A stretch of 38,292 bases of DNA, from assembly GCA_002722595.1 (NCBI GenBank), contig PBMO01000039.1, positions 1 to 38,292 of the forward strand, read 5' to 3'. The notes under the pieces are model-generated. The model saw only the letters and a list, made by a program, of their open reading frames with translations. It did not search any database and was not told the origin of the DNA. This DNA comes from Methanobacteriota archaeon. Its GTDB lineage: Archaea > Thermoplasmatota > Poseidoniia > Poseidoniales > Thalassarchaeaceae. The translations under genes were made by a program, and so were the position numbers. Positions 4,824-38,164 of the stretch are shown in pieces; positions within the stretch are counted from its first letter, which is position 1, and each line of letters begins with the position of its first letter.

Positions 4824-5513
4824 ATGGCGAAGAGGGGAGGCTTTGGAAAATTTCTCGGTGGTCTTGCAGGTCGACCCTATGACCGTCTCATGAGCCGTCT
4901 TGAAAAAATAGCAAAGGAGCATTCGGGTTCGTCTCTAGCCAGTGAATGCGAAAAGTTCGTCAAGATTGTTCGTCGTACTCTCGATGAAGAGCAAATCGAT
5001 GAAGAAGAACACGATTTGATTATGGAAGAAATCGAAGAAATTCATCCAGAAGGGAAGACTTATCCACGTTTGGGTGACGATTCAGAGGATTTTTACGATG
5101 GCGAAGAATTACCTGATGCTCCAGAACTTGATTTAGGTCGTCGTTCCAATCTTGATGACTTAATGAAGACAAAGGACGGTTCATTCACAGGTTCCTTTGG
5201 ACGAGATGAGTATGAGGAATACCGGCAACGTATGGCACAGGATTTCTTCAAAGAATCAGATGAAGCAATTGCTTCTGGAGATCACCAGAATATGACTTCC
5301 CAAGACCCAGGTCATCGGGTTTTCCATGACGTCGAAGATGAAGCCAAGGATTTGAAACGGCAAATCGCTCAGGAAATGGGTGTGGAAGTTGAAGAGGAAG
5401 AAGATGATACCTATCGTGTTGATGAGGATGGAACCGAATGGTGGCAAGACGATGATGGTGCTTGGTGGTATCGACCACAAGGCGAAGAAGATTGGTATCC
5501 TTACGAAGACTGA
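4824..5513 (+). CDS. Acidic cytosolic protein with Trp-rich C-terminal module, unknown function
   Basis: ATG 4824 (MAKRGGFGKFLGGLAGRPYDRLMSRLEKIAKEHSG); ends VDEDGTEWWQDDDGAWWYRPQGEEDWYPYED. No signal peptide or TM seen. Confidence 0.85.
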   Translation: MAKRGGFGKFLGGLAGRPYDRLMSRLEKIAKEHSGSSLASECEKFVKIVRRTLDEEQIDEEEHDLIMEEIEEIHPEGKTYPRLGDDSEDFYDGEELPDAPELDLGRRSNLDDLMKTKDGSFTGSFGRDEYEEYRQRMAQDFFKESDEAIASGDHQNMTSQDPGHRVFHDVEDEAKDLKRQIAQEMGVEVEEEEDDTYRVDEDGTEWWQDDDGAWWYRPQGEEDWYPYED

Positions 5514-24236: not shown

Positions 24237-26675
24237 ATGTCAGTCCATGGTATGGTTGTGAAGCGCGCCGCCGCCGCCTTTGTCATGCTCAGCCTTTTGC
24301 TCGCATGTATGCCTTCAGTGATTGCAGATGATGACATGGCATCTGCGACTGTTTTGACAGATGGAAGTAGTGGTACTGGTACAGTAAATGCCGACGGCGA
24401 TCAAGATGACTATTGGCGTGTTGATTTGATTAATGGTGACAAAGTATCAATCAGTGTAGATGCGACATGGGGCGCAGGTACAGGTGACGACTGTGGTTGG
24501 TGGATTTTTGGAGATACCGACCATTGGGAAGGCAAGGTTAAATTCCGCAATTCTGCAGGTGATGAATTACTAGAACGCACCATCAAAAGTGATGGTGGAC
24601 CAACATCAACATCGGTAGATATCGACCCAGCATCTACAGCTTGGGGTGGAACAGGGACTCCGAATGGAAACACCTCTTGGTACATTCAGATTCGCTCCTC
24701 TGGTACAGATTGCGAAGATGATTACGATTACACAATAACTGCAAATATCGATACAGACGACAGGGATCGAGATCAGGATACATTTCCTGATGGAAATGAT
24801 GACTGTCCCGATACCCCTGGAACATCAACCCAAGATAGAGACGGATGCATTGATGGTGATGGTGATGGTTGGTCAGATTGGGGTGACGCATTCCCAAATG
24901 AACCAACTCAGTATGCTGATCTAGACCTTGATGGTTATGGCGATAATCCAAATGGAGTCAATGGCGACCAATGCCCAATTCAGTTTGGCGATTCTCTAGA
25001 GGATCGCTTTGGTTGTCCTGATAGAGATAATGATGGTTGGTCCGATCCAGATAATTGGGGGGAATGGGGTCCAGTTTGGACAACTAACGACGGGGCAGAT
25101 GCCTTCTGGGAAGATGACACTCAGTGGTCTGATTACGATGTCGATGGTTATGGAGATAACTGGGCTAATTGGGAATGGAATGAATCACATGAGGCAATGG
25201 GTGTAGGACAATTTGTTGAAAATGCAACAACACCTGATTATTGTCCACTAGATACAGGATTTTCTTCCGAAGACAGAATGGGTTGCCCAGATACTGATTC
25301 AGATGGTTGGTCTGATCCCAGTGGTAACTGGACATGGCAATTTGATGGAGCGGATGCATTCATTGAAGATCCAACCCAACATGCAGACCGTGACCGTGAT
25401 GGCTACGGTGACAATGCAACCGGTTTGAATCCAGATCATTTCCCAGACAACCCAACACAATGGAAGGATACTGATGGCGATGGCTACGGTGATAACAACG
25501 GCCAAGGCGACTGGCAAGCCGATAATTTCACTGATGATGCGACCCAATGGGCTGACTATGACCGTGATGGCTACGGCGATAATTTGAGTGGAAATGAACC
25601 AGATTATTGCTACGATAAGCCGGGTTCCTCCATGCATGACAGGTATGGTTGTCCAGATACAGATGGTGATGGATATTCGAATCCTGATCTCGAATGGCCG
25701 GCTCACCCACAAGGATTTGCTGACGCTTTCCCTGGTGGCTTGAATGCTGATTGTGGCAATCTATGCAATACGCAATGGCATGATATTGATGGAGATGGTT
25801 ATGGGGACAATCAGGGCGATGGAGTTTGGAGACCAGATTCATGTGTCACTACATCGGGAACCAGTACCTTGGATAGGTGGGGTTGTCCAGATACAGATGG
25901 TGATGGGGCAAGCAATCCAAATATCGAGCTAGGTTGGCTACCTCACCCTGCAGGGATTGCAGATGCTTTCCCCGATGAACCCACACAATGGGAGGACACA
26001 GACGGTGATGGATTCGGTGACGAACAAACTGGATTTGAGGGTGATCGCTGCCGAGAAACCCCTGGTACAAGTCGAGGTGATAGATTTGGTTGTACAGATA
26101 CAGATGGTGACAGTTGGTCTGACCAGGGTGACAAATTCCCGCAAGACGCAACACAGTGGCAAGATGCAGACGGAGATCAATTCGGTGATAATCCTGAAGG
26201 CCACCAACCCGATAGTTGTCCAAACGCACAACCTGGACTTGGTGTATCAATTATCGATAGATTTGGTTGTCCGGATACAGATGGTGATGGATATTCTGAC
26301 GCGGATGATTTGTGGTTAGCTTCTCCAGATGGTCCAGCGGATGCGTTCCCAACAAATCGTGTCCAGTGGTCTGATATAGATGGAGATGGCTATGGTGACA
26401 ATTCAATTGGTGGGATGAGAGATGATTGTCCACAGGTTCCAGGGACCTCAACAATCGATGTCCAGGGTTGTGCTGATAGCAATGGAGATGGCTACTCTGA
26501 TGGCTATGGTGCTGTCCGTAGTCAACTGGCCCTTATGGGATCTAACCCAACATCAAGCCTACTCACTTTCGCTTGGCCTTTGTTCATTTTCTTAGTCACT
26601 TTGTTCACTGTTAAAGCATCAAAGAAAAGGGAAATTAATTCGCAATCAACGTTACTAGATGGAGGTGAATATTGA
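24237..26675 (+). CDS. Exported Ca-binding surface protein with TSP3-like DxDGDGxxD repeats and C-terminal TM
   Basis: Signal peptide MVVKRAAAAFVMLSLLLACMPSVIADD; about nine DAFPxxPTQWxDxDGDGYGDN / GCPDTDGDGxSDP units; TM LLTFAWPLFIFLVTLFTV. ORF track start 24213 is GTG inside the hairpin; ATG 24237 preferred. Confidence 0.9.
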   Translation: MSVHGMVVKRAAAAFVMLSLLLACMPSVIADDDMASATVLTDGSSGTGTVNADGDQDDYWRVDLINGDKVSISVDATWGAGTGDDCGWWIFGDTDHWEGKVKFRNSAGDELLERTIKSDGGPTSTSVDIDPASTAWGGTGTPNGNTSWYIQIRSSGTDCEDDYDYTITANIDTDDRDRDQDTFPDGNDDCPDTPGTSTQDRDGCIDGDGDGWSDWGDAFPNEPTQYADLDLDGYGDNPNGVNGDQCPIQFGDSLEDRFGCPDRDNDGWSDPDNWGEWGPVWTTNDGADAFWEDDTQWSDYDVDGYGDNWANWEWNESHEAMGVGQFVENATTPDYCPLDTGFSSEDRMGCPDTDSDGWSDPSGNWTWQFDGADAFIEDPTQHADRDRDGYGDNATGLNPDHFPDNPTQWKDTDGDGYGDNNGQGDWQADNFTDDATQWADYDRDGYGDNLSGNEPDYCYDKPGSSMHDRYGCPDTDGDGYSNPDLEWPAHPQGFADAFPGGLNADCGNLCNTQWHDIDGDGYGDNQGDGVWRPDSCVTTSGTSTLDRWGCPDTDGDGASNPNIELGWLPHPAGIADAFPDEPTQWEDTDGDGFGDEQTGFEGDRCRETPGTSRGDRFGCTDTDGDSWSDQGDKFPQDATQWQDADGDQFGDNPEGHQPDSCPNAQPGLGVSIIDRFGCPDTDGDGYSDADDLWLASPDGPADAFPTNRVQWSDIDGDGYGDNSIGGMRDDCPQVPGTSTIDVQGCADSNGDGYSDGYGAVRSQLALMGSNPTSSLLTFAWPLFIFLVTLFTVKASKKREINSQSTLLDGGEY
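24760..26510 (+). repeat. Tandem TSP3-like super-repeat coding region
   Basis: Recurrent (W)xDxDGDGYGDN...PDxCPxxxGTSxxDRxGCPDTDGDGxS...DAFPxxPTQW units, about 40-75 aa each. Confidence 0.85.
26661..26668 (+). promoter_or_regulatory. Strong Shine-Dalgarno-like sequence GGAGGTGA
   Basis: 6 nt upstream of ATG 26675, inside the 3' end of the preceding CDS; ATG overlaps the upstream TGA (TGATG). Confidence 0.75.
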
Positions 26676-27991
26676 TGAGAAAGCAGATACTCACGCTATT
26701 GACGGTAATCATGTTACTTCCTATGATTACAACCATCGTTTCTGCTCAAGATGATAGTCACATCACGGTGGCAGCATCTGGTGCATTTGAAATCGATGAG
26801 AATTATGATGGTGAACTGGATTTGGTGCGTGTAATAGCATCTATTGGAACAAATGCACCCTATGCCATGGTTGCAGCAGAAGTAATTGCTCTGAACGATG
26901 ATGTATCCCTCTCGTTTTGGAACAATACAACTCTTGAGAGTGGTGAATCTATGCTGCTGAATACTACAATCAAGGCATGGGCAGATGGTGATTTCCAGAT
27001 TTGGTTGAGAGTTTGGGATGCAGAATCTGGTTTACTTGTTCATGATGAAGAACTTGGAACATACGAATTGATTGCTAGTTTGACACCCCCTCAATTGTCT
27101 ATGGATTTAGAATCTGAAGAGTGGATATTCACCGGAGACACATGTTTAATTCATAGAGTCTCCACTGATTTAGTTGGAGCATATTATGAAGAAATGGGCA
27201 CGGTTTCAATTCAGGGCGTCCCATGGTTGGTAGGTGAATATGAGACTCCTTTGGATTGTAGTCGGTGGCCGGCTGGTCAATATACGATTGTCGAGCACTA
27301 TCGAAATGGATTAGGCATGACCGCTACAGAGACAATCTCCTTTGAGATTCTAGTACATCCTCCACCCTCATTCACCATTAACTACACTGGAAGAAGTACT
27401 GAAACAGGGACCCCTTGTGATTTAGAGATATTGCCGCAGGAAGACACTGAAATTGCAGAGATGTCAATTTCTTGGGAAGTTATCAATCCAAAACAAGAAG
27501 TGACCTATTTTGAAGATGCAGAGAGCCTTGATTGTATTATGTGGGGCCCAGGTGTTCACAAAATACGAACTACACTAACCAGCCCTCAAGGAAGGACAAC
27601 TACTGTGGCTCTGAATGTAATCAGATTGCCTCCAGCTCCCGATGCCAGCCTCGATGTTCTGAATGCAAGTGGAGATCCGGAGCGTTGGCCGTCAGTATCT
27701 GAAGGGGATGGATACGAACCGACTCCAATGTTGTACAGCCTATCGGCAACGATTGCCATGGTTGGCTCAGGTGGTTTTATTGTGGCTCTAATCCTTGGAT
27801 TACTTGCTGGTTCTCGATTTACCGGTGAAAAGAGGGAGCAGGACTTGTGGGACTCAATACCCATCGCACCGGACAGCGAAGGTATGCCCACCTATGTTGA
27901 TGAGTCAGGAGTTCATTGGCGCCAACAGCCAGATGGTAGCGTTGACTGGTGGGACTCTTCCCAGAACGTTTGGCAACCTTTTGAGGAATGA
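26675..27991 (+). CDS. Exported/TM-anchored protein with cytoplasmic Trp-rich C-terminal module
   Basis: Signal peptide MRKQILTLLTVIMLLPMITTIVSAQ; TM ATIAMVGSGGFIVALILGLLAGSRF; tail VDESGVHWRQQPDGSVDWWDSSQNVWQPFEE. Confidence 0.88.
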   Translation: MRKQILTLLTVIMLLPMITTIVSAQDDSHITVAASGAFEIDENYDGELDLVRVIASIGTNAPYAMVAAEVIALNDDVSLSFWNNTTLESGESMLLNTTIKAWADGDFQIWLRVWDAESGLLVHDEELGTYELIASLTPPQLSMDLESEEWIFTGDTCLIHRVSTDLVGAYYEEMGTVSIQGVPWLVGEYETPLDCSRWPAGQYTIVEHYRNGLGMTATETISFEILVHPPPSFTINYTGRSTETGTPCDLEILPQEDTEIAEMSISWEVINPKQEVTYFEDAESLDCIMWGPGVHKIRTTLTSPQGRTTTVALNVIRLPPAPDASLDVLNASGDPERWPSVSEGDGYEPTPMLYSLSATIAMVGSGGFIVALILGLLAGSRFTGEKREQDLWDSIPIAPDSEGMPTYVDESGVHWRQQPDGSVDWWDSSQNVWQPFEE

Positions 27992-29108: not shown

Positions 29109-29945
29109 ATGGAGTTGTGGGTTGTTGTTTTTCTCGGTGCCGCAATTTTTGTATTCAGCATCAATTTCTGGCTACTGACTGCAGGACAAAAGAAGGCTAG
29201 AAGCGATAGAGATTGGGCAATTGATTGTTCTAAAAATGCGCGATTTGAGATAGATGGTGACAATGTAATATTGCATAATCGTAGAGATTTCACATGGAGG
29301 ACAACTAGGGACTTTGATGAGAACTGGGATTCTTGGTCATTCAAGATTAGTGAGCTAAAAGGGATATGGTATGTTGTCGATTATTTCCACAAAATAAGAG
29401 GAATGGCTCATACGATGGTTGGCTTTGAATTTTCCGATGAAAGATATCTCATGGCTTCCTTTGAAGTACGTAGAGAAAAAGGTGAGAAATATCATCCTTG
29501 GACGGGGTTGTGGAATGAATTTGAACTCATACTGATATGGGCTACTGAAAGAGATTTACTCGGAGTAAGAACCAATGCTCGAGGAAATGAAGTCCAACTC
29601 TACCCTTGTGATGTATTGCCTGAAAAGAAAGTAGCCATGCTCCAAGCAATGATGCAAAGGACAAATCAATTAGCAGACAAACCAGAGTGGTATAACACAT
29701 TGACAGCAACTTGCACGACTTCAATAACGAAGGTTGTTAATCGTGTTACTCCTGGCAGAGTTCCATTTACATGGCGTGCATTACTACCAGGGTATTCTCC
29801 ATGGACGGCATGGAAGAGGGGCATTCTCATCAAGCGAGGTTCATTCAAAGAAACCGTTGCCTCCGCTGCAATCACTGAGAAAGCCAAGGCTTCCGGTTTG
29901 GGTGATCCTGGAACTCATGATTATTCTGTCAACGTGCGGAAATGA
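29109..29945 (+). CDS. Conserved-looking protein of unknown function with N-terminal TM helix
   Basis: MELWVVVFLGAAIFVFSINFWLLTAGQKK hydrophobic N-terminus; coding-like composition; tightly linked (2 bp) to the permease gene. Confidence 0.8.
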   Translation: MELWVVVFLGAAIFVFSINFWLLTAGQKKARSDRDWAIDCSKNARFEIDGDNVILHNRRDFTWRTTRDFDENWDSWSFKISELKGIWYVVDYFHKIRGMAHTMVGFEFSDERYLMASFEVRREKGEKYHPWTGLWNEFELILIWATERDLLGVRTNARGNEVQLYPCDVLPEKKVAMLQAMMQRTNQLADKPEWYNTLTATCTTSITKVVNRVTPGRVPFTWRALLPGYSPWTAWKRGILIKRGSFKETVASAAITEKAKASGLGDPGTHDYSVNVRK

Positions 29946-30621: not shown

Positions 30622-33600
30622 ATGCGCAGCAGCAAACAATACACAAGTATCCTACTTTCTCTGCTGATGATTCTCTTGCCTTTGGCAGCAACATCACCAT
30701 CATTTTTGCAAGAAGAGACTGATTATGAGCAATACACTGACAGTTTTTCTGGCCCCTCTTCTGGGTGGGGAGAATCAGCTTCAGGTTCCGTGTTTACAGA
30801 CGGCGGTTCCGACTGGGAAATGACGTCGACACGCGGTGTAGATGATTGGATGGAATATTTGGTCAGCAATGATACAATCGGCCATTTTGATATTGCCATC
30901 GGTCCTGATGGAACTGCCAAAGCCTGCGGGCACAATACGGCCAATGGCTCATTGGATTTCTTCACACTTTCACCAGATGGAGAGATCACTCGACAGACTA
31001 TCGATGGCCCCTACTCCGCGAACCAAGGCCTATTTGGTCGACAATGTTCAATCGTCATTGACTATCGTGGACTTGCTCGGATTGCTTACTTGTCAGGGTC
31101 TCCTGAGAATTCTCTCCATATCGCAAGGGAAAATGATGACACCCCACAAGTAGGCGATGACTGGTTGAAGCGAACCTTAGTCGATGATGTCGAAATTCTC
31201 GACCAACCACAGATTGCAATGTACAGCAATGGCTCGATTGCGATAGCTTACAAAGAGGTGTATGGCGATATCCATTTGGTCCGATTCTTTGGTTCATGGT
31301 GGCATCACCGCGTTCTTGCAGGGACATCTAATTCAGGAACAGATTTCGTCCTGAATATCGACTCAGATGATATTCTTCACCTCGCTTACTTAGATCAGGA
31401 AACAGATCGTCTTGGAGTCATTTCATTGGATGGTGACCAAAGAACGTACTCAGTGGTTGATGAAGGCGCAGGAATTGGACAACCCTTGGGGCATCACCTT
31501 GATTCATCTTCTCGGGCCCAATTAGTCTATGGAATTGATGATAGCACTGGGTTGCGCATTGTTCGAGACTTAACAGGCCGAGATAGTGGCCGAATTTCTC
31601 CCGAACCTGTCTTGTTGCTGGAAACTAGTGAATCAACAGATTTTGGGACCGATGCAAACGCAGATGCAGATTACAATCAGGATGGATTCAGTGATTTGAC
31701 TTATGGTGAACCAGGATACGCAAACGATACGGGCGCAGTGCATATTCACTATGGTTCGATTACAGGATATGCCTCATCGTCGAATGTAACACTCCTCGGC
31801 CCACATGAAGGGGCACGATTCGGGGCCTCTTTGGCGGTTGTTGGGAATTCAACCGGTACAGGCTATGACAACTTGCTGGTTGGTTCTCCTTTGGCAACTA
31901 ATTCGTCAGGAAATACAACTGGCGCGGTGTTTCTGTACACAGGTTCTGCTCTTGGTTTGATTTCAAATCCAACTTGGGTTGGAACCAGTGATACAATCGA
32001 TTCCCATTTCGGTTCACGGGTTGAACACGCTGGTGACATCAATGGTGATGGATATTCAGACATGCTCGTCACCGAGCTGGGCTGGTCCAATTCAGACAAC
32101 GACAAGGGTCGAGTGCATGTGATTGAGGGTGGTAGTATCATCCAGGGAATTTCAACAACAATTACTGGTGATACAACAGATGTCATACTTGGATTTGCCA
32201 TTGCAGGCATTGGTGACGCCAATGGTGATGGATTCGACGACATTGCAATTGGTAGTTCAGATGATGTGACTGCGGTTTCTGGACGCGGCCAAGCACAGAT
32301 TCACCTTGGCAGTGCAAACGGGATTTCGAATATTGCCAATACCACTTGGTCTCGTATCGATCAATGGACCCTATTCGGGCATTCAGTCAGCGCTTTGGGT
32401 GATGTGAACGATGATGGATACACAGATATTGCCATTTCAGAAATGGCCGTCAACAAAATTTGGATTTACCATGGTGGCGCTTCAGGATTCCCGCAGCAGG
32501 CCAATTATTCGATGACATCAGAGAATGGTTGGGGCTTGAATATCCAACCTGCTGGTGACATTAATGACGATGGAGTGATTGATTTCCTCATTGGGGACCG
32601 CCAGGGGCGAACTGAAATTTTGCAAGGCCAACACTCCGGTGATTTTGTTGATCGAAGTGCGGACCATCTATTCTTGCAAGTATCAAACGCCAACTCCGGA
32701 TTCGGCAAAATTTTGTCCGCAGGAGGGGACTCTGATCGTGATGGAGTACACGAGTTCATTTACGCGAGTACTGAAACAGGTACTAATGCCTCAACTTTTG
32801 GTGGTGGGGGTACAATTATCGTCATGGAAACCCGCGATTGGGAATTGAGTGACATTCCTATCGCACAATTGTTAGGAGTCACGCCAGAGATGACTTGGTA
32901 TATTGAGGGCATCGATTTGTCCGTTGATGCGCAAGGTCGAACACATGTGCTCTTACACGAATATGGAGATATTTTCGTCCACCTTGAGCGTCCAAATGAA
33001 TTGCAGACCTCAGCAGACCCTTGGAGTTTGACACATCTCGCAGGGACCTTTGTTGATGCAGCCATGGCGGTGAATCCTGCAGGCCAACCAATCTTTGTGA
33101 CAGATGGTCTAAACTTCGACCAAACCTCCCGGGAAGTTAATTTCTTACGCCCTGGAGGTGGAACTTTTGTCGAAAGTGAATCCCTTTTCCCTGTTGGAGA
33201 TCACTATGGTAGTATCGCTATTCCTTCCACTGGCCGCTCAGCGATTGCACATTCTTCAGTAGTCTCAAGTGGTACTCAATATGTGGCGTATACCAATCAG
33301 ACTGGACTCCAAGTAGGCAACACATATGCGGCTGGTTTTGAGTCCGAAATCGTCGCATCAGGAGCCCACATTGAGCAAGATATTCAGTTGTTATTCGATT
33401 CAACTTCAACCCCACATATTGTTTGGCGAGATTCAGAACTTCATGAAATCCACCTAGCTATTCAGACTAGTTCGACATGGGACCAATCGATTCTGGCAAC
33501 CGAAGCGAATGGCAACCAATTTGGTGCAATCATGGCCGAAAATGGTAGCATCGTGTTGATGTATAGACACAACACCTCTGGTTTGGTCACCGAATGGCAC

Positions 33601-36600
33601 GATGGCACAGGAGAAGATTGGTCTTCATCATCCATGACAGTCATCTCAAATGCGACTGACGAAACAGGAAGGGCCATCTTCAGACAGAATACTGCTAGTA
33701 ATCTAGAGATTTTGTTTGAGGACAATCAGTCCACTTGGCAACATCGATACAACGAGAACGGAACAGTTTCTGTTGGATTAAGCCCTCTTGATTCAAGTAA
33801 TCAAACTGGCACCCCTCATTTCACATCGAATGGATTTGTGTATCCATATGAACCAGATGTTGGTGAGTGGAACGGGCATTATGTATTGATTAATGGCAAC
33901 TCGGCAAGTGACCTTCGGATATCGTGTCCAGATCCCGAACTAGTTGTAATTTTGACAGACTCCCACTCGACATACAATAGAGCCCCTTTCAGTAATACAC
34001 CTTCTCCAGATCGCTACATATGTTCAACCAGTAATGGAATCATCACCGATTATCTTGCAGATCTACCTTTCCACAACCCAATTCAGTTGATGGGTACATC
34101 GAGTTCTGGAAATTATCCATTTACACAATTCCCAATGGACGCTGTTGTCGAAGACAATGGCAGTTGGCATTTGTTGTTTTCAGTACCATCTTCGAATAGT
34201 GGTGATTTGTTTATTCAGCGTCGCCTAATCGATTCAGATCGAGATTTCATCCCAAACCATCTCGATGAATTACCAAATCTTGGAGGCCAATGGGACGACG
34301 GAGACGGCGACGGATTTGGAGACAACCCGAATGGGCCGAGTGTTGACAAATGCCCTTCAATTGAGGGCTACAGTGAATATGGTCACTATGGCTGTGCTGA
34401 TGCAGATGGAGATGGTTTTGCAAATGCAGTTGATGATTGTGTAGCTTTTGGTAAATCTTGGAGAGATGCAATCGGATGTGGTGATAATGATGGTGATGGG
34501 TGGTCGGATCCGACGGGGGAACCCGGCTGGAACGGCGATCGCGAACCAACCAATTGGATGCAAGCAATAGATACAGACGGTGATGGGTATTACGATAATT
34601 CTGGACCAGATTGTTGTGGTGTGAATACATACAATGATGAATTCCCCCTCGATGCACAACAATGGGAAGATGTAGATGGTGATGGTTGGGGCGATAATTC
34701 AAGTGCCCCAGATGGCGACAAATGCCCTGGTTTAGATGGTAGTTCTTATCAAGATAGAAATGGCTGTTTAGATAGTGATGGCGATGGCTGGTCGGACCCT
34801 GTAAATCCTTCCACACAGAATCCAGAAGGTTGGTTATACAATCGAACAGAATGTGCAGCCACTGGCTTACATTGCGCAGATCTTTACCCTTGGGCTCCTG
34901 ATGATGAATCCGAGGAGAACATTTGTGGCCAAAATTGTTACCAACAATGGGCAGATAGTGATGGAGATGGATATGGTGACAACGACTCTGTAGATGCTTG
35001 GAATCGAGATGCCTTCCCATTTGACTGGACTCAACATATGGATACTGACAATGATGGATATGGTGACAACATTAGTGGCAACAATGCCGATGATTGTCCA
35101 ACTATATGGGGCAATTCAACGGTTGACAAGAGTGGTTGTACTGATACTGATGGAGATGGCCATTCAAACATTTATAGTTACGATATTGATGAAAACACTG
35201 GCCTAAGGATTAACGAAATGGGTGACGCTCTACCCGATGATCCTAACCAATGGAGAGATGAAGATGGTGATGGATTTGGTGAAAATCCTGTTGGCGATTG
35301 GGACCGTTGTCCAAAGGTTGCAGGTGCCCTTCTTGGGGTACCTGGTCCCGGTTGTCCTATGCCACAAGGCGATGAAGATGGTGACAATATTCCTGATGAA
35401 GATGATTTGTGTTCTGAAACACCAGAAAATGAAATCGCGAATGCGGAGGGATGTTCTCCTTCTCAAATTGATTCAGATTCAGATGGTGTCAAAGACAATC
35501 TCGACATTTGCCCTGAAACACCAGAAAATGAAACAGTCAATGAGGTTGGTTGCTCCCTTACACAGACAGATATCGATACCGATGGTGATGGGGTAAACGA
35601 TGTTGATACAAATGGAGATTTGTGGGACTCTTGCCCCAATACCCAACCAGAGGATCATGCTTTAGTTGACGCTAATGGATGTGCCCCCTCACAACGAGAT
35701 ACTGATAGTGATGGAGTTACAGACGATATGGATCTTTGTCCAGATACAACAGAGGGAGCCGCCGTAACAAGCGATGGCTGTATCGTTGTTGGTGCAGATA
35801 CCGATTCCGATGGGGTTGAAGATGCTGTAGATGCTTTCCCATCAGACCCAACACAATGGACTGACACAGATGGCGATGGATTCGGTGATAATTGGGCCGA
35901 TGCGGAATGGAACTCCTCTAGGGAAGGTACCGTAGGACAGTGGTTCCTTGATGCAAGTTGGCCAGACTCTTGTCCAGAAGTAGTAGGCACATCGAATAAT
36001 TCAGCATCAGAGGATTCTGGTGTGGAAATTATTCTTGGTTGCCCCGATGCAGATGGCGATGGGTGGGCTGACCAGATTGATTGGGCAGTTGATGACTCAT
36101 CTCAATGGATAGATGTAGATAATGATGGATTTGGAGATAATTCGGCCGGAACTCTTGGAGATCAATGTGTGGGTCAACCTGGAGTCTTAGAAGGAGAAGG
36201 GGGCGCTGGTTGCCCGGAACCATATGTTCCGCCACCAGATGAAGATGATGATGGTGTACCTGATGAAATCGACGACTGTTTGGGAACAAGCTGGCGTGAT
36301 ACTGATTTGGTAGATGAAAATGGATGCAGTCCAGCCCAATCTGAGGATTCTCAGAAAGATGACTCAGGAGCCATGAAGGATTCTGTGAAATTAATTGTTT
36401 ACGGTTCAGTCGCCTTATTGATTGGTCTCCTCCTCTTCGTAGTTGTTAGCAGGATTAGAAATGGCAACATAGATTGGGATGAGGATGATTATGATATGTA
36501 TGATGATGACGAAGACGAGGATGATTGGAATCCCTTTGGTTCATCAATGGCAACAACGCCGACTAGGTCATTTACTGCAGAACGTTCATCTCAATCGAAT

Positions 36601-37134
36601 CAGGAAAGCAATGTAGCAAGGGGCCCACCCACTCGTGGAAGGGGTCCCCCTGCCCAGAGGAGAGGCCCCCCCGGTAGATCATCTGAAAGAGGCCCTCCAT
36701 CATCGGCTTCGCGTCCTGCTGGACCATCAAGAAATACCACCAAGTCACCGCCATCAAAAACTCGGGTAACTCCCACACCATCTACTGATCCAGTCCCGAC
36801 ACGGAAGGCGCGTGTAACAAATGTGTCAGCAAATGACAGTGGAAAGCCTGTTCGAAGGACAAGAAAAACCGCTGCAACATCAGAATCTGTACCCGCAGTT
36901 CGAAAAACAAAGCGCACACCGGCACCCAAACAAAAGAGCCGCCGACGTAAAGCAAGTGATTCATTTGATGATCTATTTGGGCCTGATGAAAAGGCAGATT
37001 TCGAGAAAGAGGTAGCGGCATCCAAAGAGCGCTTGATTGTTGGCGATTCCGAACAAAGTGTTCTAGCAAGACTGCAGGCAGATGGTTGGAGTGTGAAGCA
37101 ATCAAAGTTCATACTTGGTCATGCCCGGCGTTAA
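30622..37134 (+). CDS. 2170-aa giant surface protein: FG-GAP/integrin-alpha-like propeller, TSP3-like repeats, TM, long charged cytoplasmic tail
   Basis: Signal peptide MRSSKQYTSILLSLLMILLPLAAT; FG-GAP units GDINGDGYSDMLV, GDANGDGFDDIAIG, GDVNDDGYTDIAIS, GDINDDGVIDFLIGD; TSP3-like DGDGDGFGDN units; TM VKLIVYGSVALLIGLLLFVVVSRI; tail with RGPP repeats. Confidence 0.93.
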   Translation: MRSSKQYTSILLSLLMILLPLAATSPSFLQEETDYEQYTDSFSGPSSGWGESASGSVFTDGGSDWEMTSTRGVDDWMEYLVSNDTIGHFDIAIGPDGTAKACGHNTANGSLDFFTLSPDGEITRQTIDGPYSANQGLFGRQCSIVIDYRGLARIAYLSGSPENSLHIARENDDTPQVGDDWLKRTLVDDVEILDQPQIAMYSNGSIAIAYKEVYGDIHLVRFFGSWWHHRVLAGTSNSGTDFVLNIDSDDILHLAYLDQETDRLGVISLDGDQRTYSVVDEGAGIGQPLGHHLDSSSRAQLVYGIDDSTGLRIVRDLTGRDSGRISPEPVLLLETSESTDFGTDANADADYNQDGFSDLTYGEPGYANDTGAVHIHYGSITGYASSSNVTLLGPHEGARFGASLAVVGNSTGTGYDNLLVGSPLATNSSGNTTGAVFLYTGSALGLISNPTWVGTSDTIDSHFGSRVEHAGDINGDGYSDMLVTELGWSNSDNDKGRVHVIEGGSIIQGISTTITGDTTDVILGFAIAGIGDANGDGFDDIAIGSSDDVTAVSGRGQAQIHLGSANGISNIANTTWSRIDQWTLFGHSVSALGDVNDDGYTDIAISEMAVNKIWIYHGGASGFPQQANYSMTSENGWGLNIQPAGDINDDGVIDFLIGDRQGRTEILQGQHSGDFVDRSADHLFLQVSNANSGFGKILSAGGDSDRDGVHEFIYASTETGTNASTFGGGGTIIVMETRDWELSDIPIAQLLGVTPEMTWYIEGIDLSVDAQGRTHVLLHEYGDIFVHLERPNELQTSADPWSLTHLAGTFVDAAMAVNPAGQPIFVTDGLNFDQTSREVNFLRPGGGTFVESESLFPVGDHYGSIAIPSTGRSAIAHSSVVSSGTQYVAYTNQTGLQVGNTYAAGFESEIVASGAHIEQDIQLLFDSTSTPHIVWRDSELHEIHLAIQTSSTWDQSILATEANGNQFGAIMAENGSIVLMYRHNTSGLVTEWHDGTGEDWSSSSMTVISNATDETGRAIFRQNTASNLEILFEDNQSTWQHRYNENGTVSVGLSPLDSSNQTGTPHFTSNGFVYPYEPDVGEWNGHYVLINGNSASDLRISCPDPELVVILTDSHSTYNRAPFSNTPSPDRYICSTSNGIITDYLADLPFHNPIQLMGTSSSGNYPFTQFPMDAVVEDNGSWHLLFSVPSSNSGDLFIQRRLIDSDRDFIPNHLDELPNLGGQWDDGDGDGFGDNPNGPSVDKCPSIEGYSEYGHYGCADADGDGFANAVDDCVAFGKSWRDAIGCGDNDGDGWSDPTGEPGWNGDREPTNWMQAIDTDGDGYYDNSGPDCCGVNTYNDEFPLDAQQWEDVDGDGWGDNSSAPDGDKCPGLDGSSYQDRNGCLDSDGDGWSDPVNPSTQNPEGWLYNRTECAATGLHCADLYPWAPDDESEENICGQNCYQQWADSDGDGYGDNDSVDAWNRDAFPFDWTQHMDTDNDGYGDNISGNNADDCPTIWGNSTVDKSGCTDTDGDGHSNIYSYDIDENTGLRINEMGDALPDDPNQWRDEDGDGFGENPVGDWDRCPKVAGALLGVPGPGCPMPQGDEDGDNIPDEDDLCSETPENEIANAEGCSPSQIDSDSDGVKDNLDICPETPENETVNEVGCSLTQTDIDTDGDGVNDVDTNGDLWDSCPNTQPEDHALVDANGCAPSQRDTDSDGVTDDMDLCPDTTEGAAVTSDGCIVVGADTDSDGVEDAVDAFPSDPTQWTDTDGDGFGDNWADAEWNSSREGTVGQWFLDASWPDSCPEVVGTSNNSASEDSGVEIILGCPDADGDGWADQIDWAVDDSSQWIDVDNDGFGDNSAGTLGDQCVGQPGVLEGEGGAGCPEPYVPPPDEDDDGVPDEIDDCLGTSWRDTDLVDENGCSPAQSEDSQKDDSGAMKDSVKLIVYGSVALLIGLLLFVVVSRIRNGNIDWDEDDYDMYDDDEDEDDWNPFGSSMATTPTRSFTAERSSQSNQESNVARGPPTRGRGPPAQRRGPPGRSSERGPPSSASRPAGPSRNTTKSPPSKTRVTPTPSTDPVPTRKARVTNVSANDSGKPVRRTRKTAATSESVPAVRKTKRTPAPKQKSRRRKASDSFDDLFGPDEKADFEKEVAASKERLIVGDSEQSVLARLQADGWSVKQSKFILGHARR
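31636..32850 (+). repeat. FG-GAP/integrin-alpha-like beta-propeller coding repeats
   Basis: GD[IAV]N[GD]DG[YFV]xD motifs spaced about 60-75 aa. Confidence 0.8.
34240..36350 (+). repeat. TSP3-like Ca-binding repeat coding region
   Basis: Repeated DxDGDGxGDN / DxCPxxxGxSxxDxxGCxDxDGDGWSDP motifs. Confidence 0.85.

Positions 37135-37186: not shown

Positions 37187-38164
<978 letters not shown>

Follow-up and report, generated by a model that had tools for sequence, protein, structure and literature searches.

Short terminal modules shared by otherwise unrelated proteins are known as a kind. PEP-CTERM, PGF-CTERM and the T9SS C-terminal domains (CTDs) are each one short C-terminal unit common to many unrelated surface proteins of a single lineage; the PEP-CTERM and PGF-CTERM motifs lie directly before a C-terminal transmembrane (TM) helix that is followed by a short basic end, and the T9SS CTD is an Ig-like domain of about 70-80 residues on secreted Bacteroidota proteins. 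Small aromatic beta folds are also well represented. The WW domain, which occurs in modular proteins and binds Pro-rich peptides, is a beta-meander of about 30-35 residues that has at least two conserved aromatics and a turn with DG; DUF2510 is a short domain with the pattern W..DPdG..RyWDG..W; the choline-binding and cell-wall-binding repeats (PF01473, PF19127, PF21540) have a short aromatic beta-hairpin pattern; and a single blade of the NHL/PknD or designed nvPizza propellers is a four-stranded antiparallel meander of ~30 residues. The archaeal module described here resembles the sorting units in being one short C-terminal element of many surface proteins, but it is 31 residues long, comes after the TM helix in the carriers examined, where a tether separates the two, and is also present on a soluble protein. 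Its predicted intracellular position and its occurrence on a soluble protein make it unusual among shared terminal modules.

The module came to light in a 38,292-nucleotide stretch of a Thalassarchaeaceae contig (hereafter the window), in which two genes, P0001 and P0002, were noted in a sequence-only reading to end in related Trp-rich tails (Table 1). On re-reading the sequence, both ORFs, both tails and their coordinates proved correct: the tails align ungapped over 31 residues with exactly 11 identities (BLOSUM62 score 63), and a stop codon directly follows each. When the second tail was shuffled 200,000 times, a score of 63 was never reached and 11 identities were reached three times. The regions upstream are indeed unrelated, P0001 being helical in the AlphaFold model and acidic in net charge, whereas P0002 consists of a signal peptide, Ig-like beta domains, whose structural neighbours are adhesin/receptor beta-sandwich arrays such as SiiE, and a TM helix. 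P0001 reaches a maximum 19-residue Kyte-Doolittle average of only 0.02. Pfam gave no match of note for either protein. The P0002 module was placed in the cytoplasm by the earlier reading, a topology that the prediction bears out, but it does not directly adjoin the helix, as a poorly conserved linker of 26 residues intervenes. Downstream of P0002 lies a gene with an Lnb_N domain (29109-29945, + strand; PF13387, E 9e-29), which in both MGII families is kept immediately after the P0002 orthologues or close behind them (most of 29 loci examined).

Table 1. Positions of the two founding carriers, their tails and the neighbouring JAMM-like gene in the window.
Feature	Position	Strand	Remarks
JAMM/Prok-JAB-like metalloprotease gene, divergent neighbour of P0001	4040..4810	-	HTHP-x6-SxxD motif; Pfam PF14464 E 2.2e-4, below cut-off
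P0001 gene, 229-aa soluble acidic protein with A-type module	4824..5513	+	no TM segment
P0001 N-terminus MAKRGGFGKFLGGLAGR, conserved, polybasic, Gly/Phe/Leu-rich, net +4	4824..4874	+	low model confidence for residues 1-14
A-type C-terminal module VDEDGTEWWQDDDGAWWYRPQGEEDWYPYED	5418..5510	+	conservation and AlphaFold strands
P0002 gene, 438-aa predicted type I surface protein with B-type module	26675..27991	+	
P0002 TM helix, residues 356-381, basic residues C-terminal of the helix	27740..27817	+	
B-type C-terminal module VDESGVHWRQQPDGSVDWWDSSQNVWQPFEE	27896..27988	+	conservation and AlphaFold strands

The two-tail observation was correct but understated the extent of the family, for the tails belong to a recurrent module of ~31 residues. 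When P0001 was compared with 40 relatives, full-length orthologues were recovered together with matches to the last ~31-70 residues alone; most of these partial matches lay in ORFs whose length ranged from several hundred to 3260 aa, and nearly all of them covered the final 31 residues of the ORF. A profile of P0001-type tails (A1; consensus VDEDGxEWWxDDDGxWWYRxPxxxDWxxxxx, with D2, E7, W8, W16, R19 and W26 invariant) found, for most relatives, about 4-8 copies in each genome. The P0002-type tails (A2) have the consensus xDxxGxxWRQHPDGxVDWWDxxxxxWxxx, and the two profiles aligned by hhalign over 28 columns with P 1.2e-4 and a probability of 55%, column-shuffled controls giving P 0.047-0.56. 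E-values with the main-subfamily profiles were about 1e-11 to 1e-16 per genome, and A1 and A2 each also reached C-terminal tails of greater divergence, at per-genome E-values of about 1e-6 to 1e-3. The divergent matches that were fetched were likewise the final ~30 residues of large proteins, and a combined alignment that includes them (A6) was used for the wider counts given below. In 179 of 181 distinct complete ORFs the module lay no more than four residues from the end of the protein, against about five expected from uniform placement; one of the two exceptions reflected an assembly gap and the other a tandem pair of which the second copy ends at the stop codon. The sole carrier seen with two tandem C-terminal copies was L235:645-2615 (G020:C14). 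Aromatics were kept at several positions, but the final residue varied (E, D, Q, S, W, G and others), so that recognition of the free carboxylate is unlikely.

Besides the soluble P0001, the carriers comprised at least ten types of surface protein, 440-3160 aa in length, that are predicted to cross the membrane once. These are predicted to consist of a long ectodomain, a single strongly hydrophobic TM helix, a tether and the module, and many of the complete ORFs also have a hydrophobic segment at the N-terminus. Their ectodomains were unrelated, including Ig-like domains (P0002), five fasciclin domains, CBM96/DNRLRE, WD40, FG-GAP/fn3, CARDB, TSP3 and CUB. In the large carriers the last TM helix, commonly followed by R/K, was about 40-160 aa upstream of the module, which, being beyond both helix and tether, is predicted to lie inside the cell. 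Tethers varied, many being acidic without prolines and others Pro-rich. Module identity was 0.75, 0.71 and 0.61 within carrier families and 0.53-0.61 between them. A divergent subfamily (EDGHEYLEHPAGSGSWYYRNQATNQWEKW) was seen at the C-termini of L245, L246 and L248; between membrane segment and module its carriers have another kind of cytoplasmic region, ~140 residues long and helical as judged by eye.

The tails of both founding proteins were conserved among orthologues, and selection distinguished them from their surroundings. With the further C-terminal copies found by profile, this leaves both refuting conditions named in the earlier reading contradicted by the data. Among close P0001 orthologues pN/pS was 0.074 for the module, 0.156 for the body and 0.356 for the linker, making the module the best-conserved portion of the protein; among close P0002 orthologues the values were 0.195 for the module, 0.210 for the ectodomain and 0.351 for the linker. 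That selection is stronger on the tail than on the flanking linker counts in favour of a docking function, as developed below.

The family was restricted to the Poseidoniales (MGII), with none clearly outside. With A6 it was found in 192 of 245 Poseidoniia genomes. Genomes of family f2 and, within family f1, of genera g1, g2, g4 and g7 typically have 4-14 copies, and those of g3, g5, g6, g8, g15, g16 and g17 have 0-2; we infer that f2 corresponds to Poseidoniaceae and f1 to Thalassarchaeaceae. A scan of the phylum (287 genomes requested at ≥90% completeness) placed every strong match within the order, and two matches outside it, at E about 0.003 per genome, are at chance level over 287 genomes. 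Three listed genomes of another family of the same class had no module. A1 alone matched 84 of 394 genomes of the phylum, all of them Poseidoniales, and a search for viral copies found none. The records in a GTDB-wide contig scan were labelled Poseidoniales, Thalassarchaeaceae, Poseidonia or euryarchaeote except for two contigs with bacterial labels; these (L155 and L161, labelled Deltaproteobacteria and Rhodobiaceae) carry P0001 and the JAMM gene in the MGII gene order and are probably mislabelled or from mixed bins. As A-type tails occur in both families, the spread of the module over its carriers looks old and would since then have been mainly vertical. The modules are acidic and rich in aromatics, and such tails might resemble one another by chance or composition; however, the shuffles, the profile E-values, the strict position, the low pN/pS and the confinement to one order lead us to reject this explanation, whose probability we consider negligible, since chance accounts for neither position nor conservation.

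Structure prediction, one of the checks proposed in the earlier reading, returned a small antiparallel beta-meander of four short strands in both tails. In the P0001 model these are residues 205-208, 214-217 and 225-226 with a preceding strand at 197-199 (block pLDDT about 80-87), and in P0002 residues 406-408, 414-417, 423-427 and 432-435 (about 72-82). Foldseek with the P0001 model gave as best matches single blades of the PknD and nvPizza propellers (30-32 residues, 1.1-1.2 A, prob 0.8-0.95), at an E of about 1.3 that is not significant, and one module member matched Kelch_1 at E 0.19. The Foldseek result would thus point to a small beta-meander and not to homology. Nevertheless, the four strands of both models and the conserved aromatics would suit an arrangement in which every module contributes one blade of propeller type and the tails of different surface proteins, that of P0001 included, stack to form hetero-oligomeric beta-propellers or sheets. 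Such blades would, however, be matched by any four-stranded meander, and the module corresponds to one blade only. We consider tail-to-tail stacking improbable, having lowered it because isolated single WD40 blades did not fold, mixed constructs giving homo-oligomers only (PMC6805158).

The likeness to WW or OCRE aromatic repeats proposed from the two tails held only in part. The meander and a W...DG..[WY]Y...W pattern agree with it, and the most diverse module alignment weakly resembled WW sequences in hhalign (P 7e-4, probability 27%; column-shuffled controls 0.2 or worse), a comparison that is a lead only; with the same sequences the two main subfamily profiles showed no likeness (P 0.12 and 0.28). 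A putative WW-like domain might bind Pro-rich tether segments in some of the same proteins, and repeats such as GPSGPAPGPSGPAP and PPSGPPAPPSGPP are present in several tethers. However, the module is strictly C-terminal, it has four predicted strands where WW has three, it lacks the conserved WW proline, and many tethers contain no proline to bind. The Pfam profiles for WW (PF00397) and for DUF2510 (PF10708), a family that shares the short length and W/DG/W pattern, had no match in the genome at E<=10 and none from 20 diverse modules, and membership of either was rejected; a WW-like peptide-binding role is accordingly judged unlikely. OCRE was covered by the Pfam scan only. Choline- and cell-wall-binding repeats matched weakly, in 2 of 20 modules, both divergent members (best E 0.0035), a match that is not significant, and they differ in being tandem and extracellular where the module is single (with the one tandem exception), predicted to be intracellular, and C-terminal. 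PDB sequence searches gave no useful match with P0001 or the A module, and with the B module only short de novo trefoil repeats and autolysin stretches. The family has no entry in Pfam or NCBIfam and no convincing match in these libraries or in the PDB, and the open-access literature searched, which covers only part of the journals, gave no prior description. The suggestion of an undescribed small aromatic C-terminal module was thereby upheld, at a far larger scale than two proteins.

A C-terminal unit on many exported proteins could also be a sorting, secretion or processing signal, used in a manner comparable to PEP-CTERM, PGF-CTERM or the T9SS CTDs. However, the module follows the TM helix and tether instead of containing a helix, the NCBIfam sorting-signal models did not match it, many surface proteins do without it, and P0001 carries it without a TM segment. 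This soluble carrier speaks against the module serving secretion alone and would be left unexplained by a secretion signal, and we give that reading little weight. A docking or assembly handle, on the other hand, would explain a terminal, intracellular, folded-looking module, its unrelated carriers, its soluble carrier and selection that is weaker on the tether. We therefore favour, at a probability of about 0.5, the interpretation that the tail is an autonomous microdomain through which a chosen set of surface proteins, together with P0001, would dock to a shared partner in the cytosol or to one another. The absence of the module from most surface proteins of the window counts against it.

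According to this docking model, the 31-residue tail would fold autonomously as a Trp-rich beta-meander and be attached to the cytoplasmic end of chosen surface proteins through a flexible tether that is acidic or Pro-rich, so that diverse ectodomains (adhesive, carbohydrate-binding, integrin-like) would share one intracellular adaptor surface. The common partner would gather, retain or sense the handle-bearing proteins at the inner face of the membrane. P0001 would be a helical, soluble body equipped with this handle, and its basic, Gly/hydrophobic N-terminus, a possible membrane-peripheral anchor, may lie on the membrane; the protein is probably membrane-peripheral. As the soluble member of the system it would either co-assemble with the tails or compete with them for the partner. 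A tentative extension, possible but on balance doubtful, is a common cytoplasmic tail system in which the shared microdomain assembles surface proteins and membrane-peripheral P0001 into a submembrane complex, an archaeal counterpart, in use, of the coupling of eukaryotic adhesion-receptor tails to adaptors.

Among planktonic archaea, the uncultured MGII are described as the most abundant group in the surface ocean, and their cell-surface organisation and particle attachment are an open question (PMC6461757, PMC6336850). A single intracellular handle common to adhesin-like proteins would offer a concrete entry point to this organisation: a 31-mer could serve to capture the partner, the tail marks out surface proteins that annotation otherwise lists just as hypothetical, and the module adds a protein family absent from Pfam and NCBIfam.

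The gene context of P0001 was also compared between genomes. The JAMM-like gene, whose start is 13 bp from that of P0001, was its divergent upstream neighbour in 65 loci of both families while other neighbours changed, and it was adjacent to P0001 orthologues wherever there was enough flanking sequence. It is regarded as a genetic neighbour of P0001 only. JAMM as an obligate partner was unsupported, as in module-poor genera P0001 is missing but JAMM is retained beside its other usual neighbours (G019, G021 and G024). Genera g1, g2, g4 and g7 have P0001, as does a single g5 genome that is 6% contaminated, which makes five of 11 genera, with no match in the remaining ones; genera without it keep 0-2 divergent module copies. 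The presence of P0001 thus coincides with the module-rich state, and one loss event may account for the pattern. This co-loss, perhaps a single event in a small-genome Thalassarchaeaceae clade that lost much else, is weak evidence of a functional link. A connection with the archaellum was rejected, because archaellin (PF01917) is present in the module-poor g5 and g6 and was not found in the module-rich g2 or in most g4 genomes. Oligosaccharide degradation has been assigned to MGIIa and, within MGIIb, to the most basal subclades (PMC6336850), a division that may be the same as that between module-rich and module-poor genera.

A 2170-aa surface protein of the window (30622-37134, + strand) has a Pro-rich cytoplasmic tail ending in LARLQADGWSVKQSKFILGHARR, and an ORF of L173 ends in LPDGWTMEQWQFYGEDYLNRNR; these endings are possibly a second recurrent tail type. 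The ORF at 37187-38164 (+ strand) has a long unbroken PEPEPE... repeat ahead of its C-terminus.
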